Below, one piece after another: positions 16,307-56,700 of a DNA stretch of 64,000 nucleotides; the first letter of the stretch is position 1, and every line of letters begins with the position of its first letter. Position numbers and translations under genes: made by a program. The stretch lies in contig JAZBQD010000005.1 in NCBI GenBank assembly GCA_036583965.1, forward strand, positions 1,165,456 through 1,229,455. Reading direction: 5' to 3'. This DNA is from Prunella strophiata (taxonomy: Eukaryota > Chordata > Aves > Passeriformes > Prunellidae). Under the pieces are notes generated by a model that had not been told where the DNA came from, searched no databases, and saw only the letters and a program-made list of their open reading frames with translations.

Positions 16307-19300
16307 ATGGAGAAAATTCCAGAAGGTGGAGAAGATAGGCGAGGGCCCTACGGGGTGGTCTACAAGGCCCGCAACAAGGTGACAGGAGAGGTGGTGTGGC
16401 CACCTCAAAGAAAATCCGCCTGGACACGTGAGTGGGGTCGCCGGGGGGGTCCCCGGGGGTCACAGCCCCCCTCACGGTGATGTCACCGCAGGGAGACCGA
16501 GGGTGTCCCCAGCACGGCCATCAGGGAGATCTCGCTGCTCAAGGAGCTCAACCACCCCCAACATCGTCATAGTGGGTTGGGGGCGGCTGGGGGGGATTGG
16601 GGGTCTGGGGGGTGATGTCACTGAGGAGGGGTCCCCAGGGTGTCCGGGGGGGGTCCTGGGGGTGTCTTTGGGGGTTCTTGGGGGTCCTGGGGGGGAAGTG
16701 TCACTGAGGCGGTGGTCCACAGGAGTTCCTGGGGGTGTTTTTGGGGGGCTTTGAGGGGTCCTGGTGGGGTGGCATGTCACTGAGGAAGGGTCCCACGAGG
16801 GTGCTGGGGGGGTCTTGGGGGTCTTTGGGGGGATTTGTGGGGGGATTTTGGGGTTGGGGGGTTCCGGGGGAAAATGTCATTGGGAGGGGTCCCCAGGAGA
16901 TGTCCTGAGGGTGTTTTTTGGGGGGGTCTTGGGACTTTTGGGGGGATTTTGGGGGAGATGTCACCAAGGAAGGGTCCTCAGGAGCGTCTGGGGGTGTTTT
17001 TGGGGGGTCTGGTTGACTTTTGGGGGGTCCTGGGGGGAAAGTCACTGAGGAGGGGTCCCCCCAGGAGTGTCCTGGGGGGGGTCTTTGGGGGGGTCTTGGG
17101 GGACTTGGGATGTCCTGGGGGTATGGGGGGCTCTGGGGGTGTCATGAGGAGCCCCCTGTGACCAGGGCTGTCCCCAGGATGTGCTGTGGCCGTGCCAGGC
17201 CCTGTGGTGTCCCCATGTCCCTGTCCCCATGTCCCTGTCCCCGTGTCCCCAGGATGTCCCCCTGTCCCTCTCCCTGTGTTCTGTGGCTGTCCCCAAGCTG
17301 TCCCCATGTCCCCAAGCTGTCCCCATGTCCCCTGGCTGTCCCCATGTCCCCAAGCTGTCCCCATGTCCCCAAGCTGTCCCCATGTCCCCAAGCTGTCCCC
17401 ATGTCCCCAAGCTGTCCCCATGTCCCCAAGCTGTCCCCATGTCCCCAGGCTGCTGGATGTCATCCACACTGAGAACAAGCTGTACCTGGTGTTCCAGTTC
17501 CTGTCCCCATGTCCCTGTCCCCGTGTCCCAGACCCTGTCCCTCTGTCCCAGGGCTGTCCCCATGTCCCCAAGCTGTCCCCATGTCCCCAAGCTGTCCCCA
17601 TGTCCCCAAGCTGTCCCCATGTCCCCAGGCTGCTGGATGTCATCCACACTGAGAACAAGCTGTACCTGGTGTTCCAGTTCCTGTCCCCATGTCCTTGTCC
17701 CCGTGTCCCAGAGCCTGTCCCTCTGTCCCAGGCCAGGTCCCAGGGCTGTCCCCATTGTCCCCAAGCTGTCCCCATGTCCCCAAGCTGTCCCCATGTCCCT
17801 GTCCCCATGTCCCCAAGCTGTCCCCATGTCCCCAGGCTGCTGGATGTCATCCACACTGAGAACAAGCTCTACCTGGTGTTCGAGTTCCTGCACCAGGACC
17901 TCAAGAAGTTCATGGACTCCTCGTCCCTCAGCGGGATCGCGCTGCCCCTCATCAAGGTGGGACCCCAAAACATCTGGGGGGACCCTAAAACATCTGGGGG
18001 GACCCTAAAACATCTGGGGGGGACCCTAAAACATCTGGGGGGACCCTAAAACATCTGGGGGGGACCCTAAAACATCTGGGGGGGACCCTAAAACATCTGG
18101 GGGGGGACCCTAAAACATCTGGGGGGACATTGGGGACCCCTAAAACATCTGTGGGGGACTCTAAAACACCTGGGGGGACAGTGGGGGACCCCAAACCCAC
18201 CCTGAGGGTCCCCTGGGTCACTCAGGGGTCACTCAGGTCACTCAGGGGATGTCCCCAACGATGTCCCCAATGTCCCCAATGATGTCCCCAATGTCCCCAA
18301 CGATGTCCCAATGCCCAGAGTCACCCTGAGGGGGGTTTAGGGACACCCTGGGCAATCCCAGACCCCTGGATGTCCCCAAAACCCACCCTGAGGGTCCCCT
18401 GGGTCACTCAGGGGTCACTCAGGGGTCACTCAGGTCACTCAGGGGATGTCCCCAATGATGTCCCCAATGTCCCCAACGATGTCCCCAATGTCCCCAATGT
18501 CCCCAATGTCCCCAATGTCCCCAGTGTCCCCTGTCCCCTCTGCTGCAGGGGCTGGCGTTCTGCCACATGACCCAAACCCCAAACCCACCCTGAGGGTCCC
18601 CTGGGTCACTCAGGGGTCACTCAGGTCACTCAGGGGATGTCCCAAAAGGTGTCCCCAATGTCCCAAAAGGTGTCCCCAATGTCCCCAATGATGTCCCCAA
18701 TGATGTCCCCAATGTCCCCAGTGTCCCCTGTCCCCTCTGCTGCAGGGGCTGGCGTTCTGCCACATGACCCAAACCCCAAACCCACCCTGGGGGTCCCCTG
18801 GGTCACTCAGGGGTCACTCAGGTCACTCAGGGGATGTCCCCAACAATGTCCCTGATGTCCCCAACGATGTCCCCAATGCCCAGAGTCACCTGAGGGGGGT
18901 TTAGGGACACCCTGGGCACATCCCAAGACCCCCTGGATGTCCCCAAACCCACCCTGGGGGTCCTCAGAGCCACTCAGGGGTCACTCAGGGGTCTGACCTC
19001 AACGATGTCCCCAATGTCCCCAACGATGTCCCCAATGTCCCCAGAGTCCCCTGTCCCCTCTGCTGCAGGGGCTGGCGTTCTGCCACGTCACCCCAAACCC
19101 ACCCTGGGGTCGCCTGGGTCACTCAGGGGTCACTCAGGTCACTCAGGGGATGTCCCCAATGATGTCCCCAATGTCCCAAAAGGTGTCCCCAATGTCCCCA
19201 ACGATGTCCCCAATGTCCCCAGTGTCCCCTGTCCCCTCTGCTGCAGGGGCTGGCGTTCTGCCACATGACCCAAACCCCAAACCCACCCTGAGGGTCCCCT

Positions 19301-53700: not shown

Positions 53701-56700
53701 GCTGTTGAGGCTGTAGGGGGTATTTTTGGGGTATTTTTGGGGTATTTTTGGGGTATTTTTGGGGTATTTTGGGGACCCGGGGCACACCTTGAAGCGGCTG
53801 TTGAGGCTGTAGGGGGTATTTTTGGGGTATTTTTGGGGTATTTTTTGGGGTATTTTTGGGGTATTTTTGGGGTATTTTTGGGGTCCTGGGGCACACCTTG
53901 AAGCGGCTGTTGAGGCTGTAGGGGGTATTTTTGGGGTATTTTTGGGGTATTTTTGGGTTTTTTGGGGTATTTGGGGTCCTGGGGCACACCTTGAAGCGGC
54001 TGTTGAGGCTGTAGGGGGTATTTTTGGGGGTATTTTGGGGTATTTTTGGGGTATTTTTTGGGGTATTTTTGGGGTATTTTTGGGGTATTTTTGGGGTATT
54101 TTTGGGGGTATTTTGGGGTATTTTTGGGGTCCTGGGGCACACCTTGAAGCGGCTGTTGAGGTTGTAGGGGGTATTTTGGGGTATTTTTGGGGTATTTTTG
54201 GGGTATTTTGGGGTCCCGGGCACACCTTGAAGCGGCTGTTGAGGCTGTAGGGGGTATTTTGGGGTATTTTTGGGGTCCTGGGGCACACCTTGAAGCGGCT
54301 GTTGAGGCTGTAGGGGGTATTTTTGGGGTCCTGGGGCACACCTTGAAGCGGCTGTTGAGGCTGTAGGGGGTATTTTTGGGGTCCTGGGGCACACCTTGAA
54401 GCGGCTGTTGAGGCTGTAGGGGGTATTTTTGGGGTATTTTTGGGGTCCTGGGGCACACCTTGAAGCGGCTGTTGAGGCTGTAGGGGGTATTTTTGGGGTC
54501 CTGGGGCACACCTTGAAGCGGCTGTTGAGGCTGTAGGGGGTATTTTTGGGGTCCTGGGGCACACCTTGAAGCGGCTGTTGAGGCTGTAGGGGGTATTTTT
54601 GGGGTATTTTTGGGGTATTTTTGGGGGTATTTTGGGGTATTTTTGGGGTATTTTTGGGGTATTTTTGGGGTCCTGGGGCACACCTTGAAGCGGCTGTTGA
54701 GGCTGTAGGGGGTATTTTTGGGGTCCTGGGGCACACCTTGAAGCGGCTGTTGAGGCTGTAGGGGGTATTTTTGGGGTATTTTTGGGGTATTTTTTGGGGT
54801 ATTTTTGGGGTATTTTTGGGGTATTTTTTGGGGTATTTTTGGGGTCCTGGGGCACACCTTGAAGCGGCTGTTGAGGCTGTAGGGGGTATTTTTGGGGTCC
54901 TGGGGCACACCTTGAAGCGGCTGTTGAGGCTGTAGGGGGTATTTTTGGGGTATTTTTGGGGTATTTTTGGGGTCCTGGGCACACCTTGAAGTGGCTGTTG
55001 AGGCTGTAGGGGGTATTTTTGGGGTATTTTTGGGGTATTTTTTGGGGTATTTTTGGGGGTATTTTGGGGTATTTTTGGGGTATTTTTGGGGTATTTTTGG
55101 GGTATTTTTGGGGTATTTTTGGGGTATTTTTGGGGTATTTTTGGGGTATTTTTTGGGGTATTTTTTGGGGTATTTTTGGGGTCCTGGGGCACACCTTGAA
55201 GCGGCTGTTGAGGCTGTAGGGGGTATTTTTGGGGTCCTGGGGCACACCTTGAAGCGGCTGTTGAGGTTGTAGGGGGTATTTTTGGGGTATTTTTGGGGTA
55301 TTTTTGGGGTATTTTTGGGGTCCTGGGGCACACCTTGAAGCGGCTGTTGAGGCTGTAGGGGGTATTTTTGGGGTATTTTGGGGTATTTTGGGGTATTTTT
55401 GGGGTCCTGGGGCACACCTTGAAGCGGCTGTTGAGGCTGTAGGGGGTATTTTTGGGGTATTTTTGGGGTCCTGGGGCACACCTTGAAGCGGCTGTTGAGG
55501 CTGTAGGGGGTATTTTTGGGGTATTTTTGGGGTCCTGGGGCACACCTTGAAGCGGCTGTTGAGGCTGTAGGGGGTATTTTTGGGGTATTTTTGGGGTCCT
55601 GGGGCACACCTTGAAGCGGCTGTTGAGGCTGTAGGGGGTATTTTTGGGGTATTTTTGGGGTCCTGGGGCACACCTTGAAGCGGCTGTTGAGGCTGTAGGG
55701 GGTATTTTTGGGGTCCTGGGGCACACCTTGAAGCGGCTGTTGAGGCTGTAGGGGGTATTTTTGGGGTATTTTTGGGGTCCTGGGGCACACCTTGAAGCGG
55801 CTGTTGAGGCTGTAGGGGGTATTTTTGGGGTATTTTTTTGGGGGACCCTCTGGGTGCTGGGGACAGTCCCTGTGTTTTGGGGACCCCTCTGCGCTCAGCT
55901 CACCCCCCACACTCTCACATCACCCCCCGAGCTCTGTCCCCACCGTGTCCCCTCCGTGCCCTCCTCGGGGTAACCCTGTGCCCCCCTCGGTGTGTCCCTG
56001 TCCCCCCCTGTATCCTCCCTGTCCCCTCTGTGCCCTCCTCTGGGTATCCCTGTGTCCCCCTCGGTGGTCTCTGTCCCCCCCTGTACCCTCCCTGTGCCCT
56101 CTGTGCCCTCCCTGTCCCCTCTGTGCCCTCCCTGTCCCCTCCGTGCCCTCCTCTGGGTATCCCTGTGCCCCCCTCGGTGTGTCCCTGTCCCCCCCTGTAT
56201 CCTCCCTGTCCCCTCCCTGTCCCCTCTGTCCCCTCCCTGTCCCCTCTGTCCCCTCCCTGTCCCCTCTGTGCCCTCCCTGTCCCCTCTGTCCCCTCCCTGT
56301 CCCCTCCCTGTCCCCTCTGTCCCCTCCCTGTCCCCTCCCTGTCCCCTCTGTGCCCTCCTCTGGTATCCCTGTGCCCCCCTCGGTGGTCCCTGTCCCCTCT
56401 GTCCCCTCCCTGTCCCCTCCCTGTCCCCTCCCTGTCCCCTCTGTGCCCTCCCTGTCCCCTCTGTCCCCTCTCTGTCCCCTCTGTCCCCTCTCTGTCCCCT
56501 CCCTGTCCCCTCATTGTCCCCTCCCTGTCCCCTCCCTGTCCCCTCCCTGTCCCCTCTGTGCCCTCCTCTGGTATCCCTGTGCCCCCCTCGGTGGTCCCTG
56601 TCCCCTCTGTCCCCTCCCTGTCCCCTCTGTCCCCTCCCTGTCCCCTCTGTGCCCTCCTCTGGGTATCCCTGTGCCCCCCTCGGTGGTCCCTGTCCCCTCT

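Follow-up and report, generated by a model that had tools for sequence, protein, structure and literature searches.

Why do the introns and untranslated regions (UTRs) of a group of bird genes carry repeated copies of the edges of the exons beside them? This question is raised by a 64,000-nucleotide stretch of the Prunella strophiata genome (GCA_036583965.1, contig JAZBQD010000005.1, positions 1,165,456 to 1,229,455; hereafter the window), in which CDK2, RAB5B and SUOX lie on the forward strand and PDE1B on the reverse strand, names that are backed by sequence matches in the PDB. Tandem repeats fill the introns and UTRs of the window (483 tandem-repeat rows in total), and an initial annotation had proposed that the arrays of these four genes contain copies of the nearest exon edge. 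Our analysis bears out the copies, and the pattern probably represents exon stuttering in GC-rich, repeat-filled genes, produced by duplication across exon boundaries, multiplication within arrays, exchange between arrays, and selection. All results derive from a single assembly with frameshifts and gaps, in which neither array order nor the number of copies is certain: two gaps of 500 bases lie at 14919-15418 and 46782-47281, and frameshifts are visible by eye in CDK2 exons 1 and 2 (16309-16570) and 4 (19409-19555) and in the large SUOX exon.

We applied the published chicken screen for exon stuttering (blastn-short with the dust filter off, and thresholds of at least 20 bp and at least 42.1 bits), comparing 23 exon pieces with the whole window; the SUOX query was itself one of the SUOX copies, the full exon falling in a gap. 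Twenty-seven copies outside the source pieces passed these thresholds, all of them on the strand of their source and with 30-69 bp of exon each; 25 have one end exactly at the exon edge and the remaining two fall 2 bp short of it. The full exon is present in the window for 23 of the 27 matches, the other four being those of SUOX, and among the 23 the placement follows one rule, with acceptor copies upstream and donor or stop-codon copies downstream of the exon. None of the 23 is a whole-exon copy, in line with the initial annotation. Its further statement, that the full exon usually terminates the array, is borne out at CDK2 and RAB5B; the SUOX array runs into the gap, and PDE1B has no full exon among the matches listed.

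Chance similarity was rejected as an explanation. Twenty mononucleotide shuffles gave a top score of 40.1, below the 42.1-bit threshold, and when 18-mer exon windows were searched for copies elsewhere with at most 2 mismatches, matches were found for 31/138 windows lying at most 2 bp from an edge versus 19/1344 lying more than 50 bp inside, with 0 to 6 of 577 windows matching in five runs of a first-order Markov null. Interior matches (more than 30 bp inside, some at 31-50 bp) occur in 7/41 windows of the exon piece PDE1B_G and 8/62 of PDE1B_C, which runs against a pure edge rule.

Further families fall under the threshold or lack a query exon: 31 copies of the PDE1B SLNSRFK donor, 14 of the CDK2 stop tail, five of the RAB5B exon-2 5' edge, four of the CDK2 exon-4 5' edge and one, seen by eye, of the CDK2 exon-4 3' edge. 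Together with the 27 copies of the screen, they confirm that arrays of all four genes are involved, and the claim that stop-codon tails are copied too is upheld by the 14 CDK2 copies and five RAB5B copies. By our own tally, counting every family, copies were taken from 13 of about 45 edges (6/14 in CDK2, 5/10 in RAB5B, 1/2 in SUOX and 1/19 in PDE1B).

The composition of the copied units was assessed at 43 edges, with the PDE1B row entered by hand from the donor-copy search. Exon edge and flank are copied together at 10 edges, the exon edge alone at none, the flank alone at six, and neither at 27. The exon edge is thus copied with its flank and never by itself, and the units are therefore contiguous genomic DNA across the boundary. 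Furthermore, we defined ten exon-internal junctions and used 7-base anchors to find the partner of each within the same array. Six were resolved, with overlaps of 4, 1, 5, 1, 4 and 5 bases, so that 4-5 bp of microhomology is present at four of them; the sum of 20 compares with 4.2 for random junctions treated alike (P 0.016). Shortening the anchors to 6 bases resolved 7 junctions (P 0.018), and lengthening them to 8 resolved 5 (P 0.012). For human meiotic break repair, the part of the published account consulted describes adjacent duplications with 1-10 bp of microhomology (PMC7615360). Two junction types each were found at CDK2 exon 6 and RAB5B exon 4, and essentially one at CDK2 exon 3, both stop tails and PDE1B; by eye, the type A junction of exon 6 could be a decayed type B. 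These junction types imply that each edge was captured at least once and that multiplication within the array gave the rest.

The supposition in the initial annotation that one process is shared by all these families is thus sustained by the joint copying of edge and flank (10/43 edges, against 0/43 for the exon alone), the consistent direction (23/27) and the 4-5 bp microhomology at 4/6 junctions, which support tandem duplication of DNA spanning the exon boundary. That copies stop partway into the exon fits a survival bias and needs no special mechanism, because selection should eliminate duplications of a whole exon or of an exon interior, which alter the protein. Exon and flank divergence were compared without gaps, and the flanks differ by slippage indels, making that comparison unusable.

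The arrays are mostly private to their regions. Among 20 intron, UTR and intergenic regions, shared 20-mers amount to at most 3.3%, except for CDK2 introns 4b and 5, which have 65% and 41% of their 20-mers in common and a longest exact match of 90 bp. Type A exon-6 edge copies are present on both sides of exon 5, in intron 4 (20861, 20952) and in intron 5 (21822, 21991). Expansions are accordingly isolated between exons in most of the 20 regions and are not isolated for CDK2 introns 4b and 5, where an assembly error is possible. The best collinear alignment of CDK2 introns 4 and 5 reaches 75.6% over 911 columns, which does not separate duplication of a larger block from array self-similarity. 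A unit may have crossed exon 5 through exchange between arrays, exon 5 and its array may have been duplicated with subsequent loss of one exon, or the region may be misassembled.

The initial annotation had also raised the possibility of decoy splice sites and had named GC skew as a driver. At the sequence level the copies are candidate decoys, since the last 20 intron bases are identical to those of the true acceptor in both CDK2 exon-3 copies and in all six exon-6 copies; all 18 acceptor copies, if read through without a new donor, reach an in-frame stop after 15-199 codons. The proposed driver finds no support: coding-strand GC skew over 11 array regions is negative in five (-0.21 to -0.58), positive in four (0.17 to 0.59) and weak in two (-0.11, -0.01), with no one-way direction. 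A single orientation of the G-rich strand was likewise rejected as driver. Motifs of the G-quadruplex (G4) type lie on the template strand in the four CDK2 regions, in PDE1B and in the region 5' of RAB5B exon 2, and mainly on the coding strand in the regions 3' of RAB5B exon 2, at exon 4 and at the stop; RAB5B exon 3 has two such motifs and SUOX has none.

Under the favored explanation, a germline break or stalled fork near an array border would be repaired through short microhomology, duplicating a segment that spans the exon boundary, and slippage or unequal exchange would then multiply the unit within the array. Occasional exchange of units between neighboring arrays would have carried the exon-6 edge copies past CDK2 exon 5, and protein-level selection would purge whole-exon and intra-exon duplications, leaving the edge copies. 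The copies would be by-products, and their use as decoy splice sites, if any, a side effect. Several observations weigh against this explanation. Duplication within a single intron does not account for the two exon-6 copies that precede CDK2 exon 5; four of the ten junctions have no partner in the same array, and two of the six resolved ones overlap by just 1 bp. Flanks are copied alone at CDK2 exon 3 3', PDE1B_J 3' and PDE1B_D 5' (3/43 edges), as well as at three further edges (CDK2 exon 4 on both sides and RAB5B exon 2 5') where the exon is garbled or diverged in the assembly and its copies are seen by eye. The evidence comes, moreover, from one assembly of one individual of one species.

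Variation among the copies addresses whether edges were captured once and then multiplied, or whether re-copying from the selected exon, or conversion with it, went on repeatedly. The codon-position test excluded the degenerate RAB5B exon-3 copy (near 30347), the gap-cut SUOX copy, the RAB5B exon-2 5' family, which is non-coding, and the only CDK2 exon-4 3' copy. Three other copies were used in part: SUOX 46387 up to base 39, where it has an indel; the RAB5B exon-2 copy ending at about 29958, minus its first 8 bases; and CDK2 exon-6 21537 up to base 52. Of 26 variable columns in the coding families, 16 are third, 7 second and 3 first codon positions, a third-position excess with P 0.003 under equal weighting and 0.003-0.016 under CpG and GC weighting; for the copies alone, 14/23 columns are third-position (P 0.005-0.021). 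All four combinations of two CDK2 exon 6 variants are seen among the copies and the exon, which fits exchange or repeated CpG change, and two edges carry two junction types, both in favor of re-copying. Against it, family-wise rotation of the phase yields P 0.045, and 10/20 columns are third-position once SUOX is excluded (P 0.09); a double change is possible at one of the exon-6 sites, a CpG; and in a split made post hoc the internal-exon families have 16/19 third-position columns and the stop tails and PDE1B 0/7, the latter families also showing a single junction type. The third-position lean hints at re-copying from the selected exon without settling the matter, and we regard repeated re-copying as possible but somewhat doubtful. 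We are equally tentative about a broader version, in which neighboring arrays and the exon edges between them would form one exchanging system, with units crossing exon 5 and edges, stop tails included, re-copied from the selected exon, leaving mainly third-position differences and true-looking acceptors before the wrong exon.

An assembly artefact, with copies made or multiplied by noisy or mis-joined long reads, is suggested by the frameshifts in CDK2 exons 1, 2 and 4 and the large SUOX exon, by the two gaps, and by an exon crossing that is seen in one assembly; the copies nevertheless differ from one another in substitutions and junctions and keep a consistent direction, and a like pattern was checked against raw nanopore reads in one chicken gene, according to the portion of that report consulted (PMC12954441), making this origin unlikely. 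Less probable still is that the copies are kept for a function, for instance as decoy or regulated splice sites. The copied acceptors of CDK2 exons 3 and 6, matching the true ones over 20 bases, would agree with such a role, but stop-codon tails, which have no splice site, are copied too, 18/18 acceptor copies hit a stop if read through, and 27/43 edges have neither exon nor flank copy. RNA-mediated insertion of exon pieces, as complementary DNA, was rejected and is scarcely credible, given that flanks are copied along with exon edges, that copies without intron or UTR flank occur at 0/43 edges, and that 27/27 copies are on the strand of their source.

The process has already been published as exon stuttering, and the present families are members of that kind. 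In chicken, the sections of the original report available to us describe it in 115 genes and 236 introns, 190 of the latter on dot chromosomes, with 1-44 copies of 20-187 bp (median 36), more than 90% of sources within 1 base of the exon border, raw-read checks for PHF8, and strong length variation (Hron et al. 2026, PMC12954441). The Prunella families resemble these: parts of exon edges, each with its splice site, recur throughout the adjacent repeat-filled intron, and copy lengths and numbers are comparable. The intronic families of CDK2, RAB5B, SUOX and PDE1B qualify as stuttering: the source touches the exon border exactly in 25/27 copies and within 2 bp in 2/27, and 27 copies score above 42.1 bits, the PDE1B, CDK2 stop, CDK2 exon-4 and RAB5B exon-2 5' families lying below that score or having no query. 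Taken to the letter, the definition does not cover the pair of CDK2 exon-6 copies found in intron 4, nor the stop-tail families of the CDK2 and RAB5B 3' UTRs, nor the RAB5B exon-2 5' family, whose exon sequence is non-coding. Unlike the chicken cases as presented in those sections, the stop tails here lie in 3' UTR arrays, which are invisible to an intron screen, and one array family stands on both sides of an exon, whereas the chicken expansions are called strictly local and isolated between exons (PMC12954441). The same source counts 5,792 distal hits, 78% below and 22% above threshold, judged mainly false positives; exon crossings could hide among those above threshold. Relative to the text of that report consulted, the extensions are the stop-tail copies, the array family flanking an exon, the junction microhomology and the third-position lean. 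A search for the phrase "exon stuttering" in the literature collection used gave no source beyond Hron et al. 2026 (PMC12954441), whose main text contains neither CDK2, RAB5B, SUOX and PDE1B nor the term UTR; the genes may be on its supplementary list.

Two other described systems come close. In human segmental duplications, tandem repeats likewise lie across exon-intron boundaries and may alter splicing (De Grassi and Ciccarelli 2009, PMC2812944); unlike the repeats described here, they can form new introns in recently duplicated genes, and the text examined has no long arrays of exon-edge copies. GC-rich avian genes likewise have tandem-repeat introns and flanks with G4 motifs (Beauclair et al. 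2019, PMC6792250), but no exon-edge copies in the text examined.

Individual arrays show further particulars. At CDK2 exon 4, whose initial SYLFQLLQ is missing, the array directly adjoins CTGCTGCAG; the exon start reflects either a consensus error or a loss of the first 24 exon bases. The copies of this garbled exon carry at most candidate splice sites. A SUOX intron lies between GREVVR and VDVSL (45827-46781). Human SUOX is not known to have an intron at this position; if it has none, the SUOX intron built of stuttered exon copies may be young. Stuttered arrays may break assemblies, the gap at 46782-47281 falling where the stuttered SUOX exon would end. One PDE1B copy (53416-53445) differs from the others in its 10-residue reading and is nearest to the human sequence TRHNLISRFK. 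Among the matches listed the other copies read differently, and the multiplied form appears to have drifted from the exon.

Elsewhere in the window, highly regular short-period arrays at 23340-23720 and 37340-38990 show no exon copies by eye. An exon near 5701-5781 matches Pfam PF11938 and presumably belongs to CNPY2; 11 of 12 sampled windows of this exon have no match elsewhere and the last has two 2-mismatch matches. Two open frames at 6621-7704 agree almost perfectly over about 100 residues, and the block adjoining the CNPY2-like exon appears, from these paired frames, to be duplicated.

Table 1. Exons, exon-edge copies and associated arrays in the window (window coordinates).
Feature	Positions	Strand	Details
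CDK2 exon-3 acceptor copy 1	17449..17503	+	55 bp of exon; self-BLAST
CDK2 exon-3 acceptor copy 2	17629..17683	+	self-BLAST
CDK2 exon 3	17836..17956	+	full
CDK2 exon-4 5' fragments (four)	18549..19260	+	GGGCTGGCGTTCTGC at ~18549, 18746, 19069, 19247
CDK2 exon 4 as assembled	19409..19555	+	garbled; without SYLFQLLQ
CDK2 exon-4 3' end copy (probable)	20258..20275 (approximate)	+	RTYTHE, then gtgggg; by eye
CDK2 intron 4b array	20351..21285	+	repeat family as in intron 5
CDK2 exon-6 acceptor copy	20861..20912	+	junction type A; intron 4
CDK2 exon-6 acceptor copy	20952..21003	+	junction type A; intron 4
CDK2 exon 5	21286..21387	+	full; between two arrays of one family
CDK2 intron 5 array	21388..22529	+	
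CDK2 exon-5 donor copy	21433..21469	+	37 bp
CDK2 exon-6 acceptor copies (four)	21537..22266	+	21537-21604 (type B), 21822-21873 (A), 21991-22042 (A), 22198-22266 (B)
CDK2 exon 6	22530..22733	+	full
CDK2 stop-tail copies (14)	24055..25231	+	CACCTGCGCCTCTGA; 3' UTR array; true tail ends at 23998
RAB5B exon-2 5' edge copies (five)	28204..28848	+	28204 (diverged), 28316, 28549, 28688, 28825; non-coding exon sequence
RAB5B exon 2	28998..29197	+	full
RAB5B exon-2 donor copies (four)	29327..29958	+	ends 29369, 29583, ~29777, ~29958
RAB5B exon-3 acceptor copies (three, plus one degenerate)	30225..30746	+	30225, 30553, 30717; degenerate near 30347
RAB5B exon 3	30882..31033	+	
RAB5B exon-4 acceptor copies (two)	32425..32645	+	32425, 32604; differing junctions
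RAB5B exon 4	32803..32925	+	
RAB5B stop-tail copies (five)	34781..35735	+	ends 34816, 34968, 35152, 35440, 35735; true tail ends at 34657
SUOX exon-4 acceptor copies	46167..46781	+	46167, 46286, 46387, 46491, 46625; one gap-cut near 46771
Assembly gap	46782..47281		expected place of full SUOX exon
PDE1B SLNSRFK exon-end copies with donor (31)	53300..55814	-	27 identical over 29 bp

Taken together, these data present a newly described form of genome instability at base resolution in four genes, and extend its first description with tests of the direction of the copies, microhomology at junctions, the copying of stop-codon tails and passage past an exon. Should array units truly cross exons, competing splice acceptors can land before the wrong exon, and such crossing, if true, bears on the decay and loss of bird genes of this kind and on the difficulty of their assembly and annotation.

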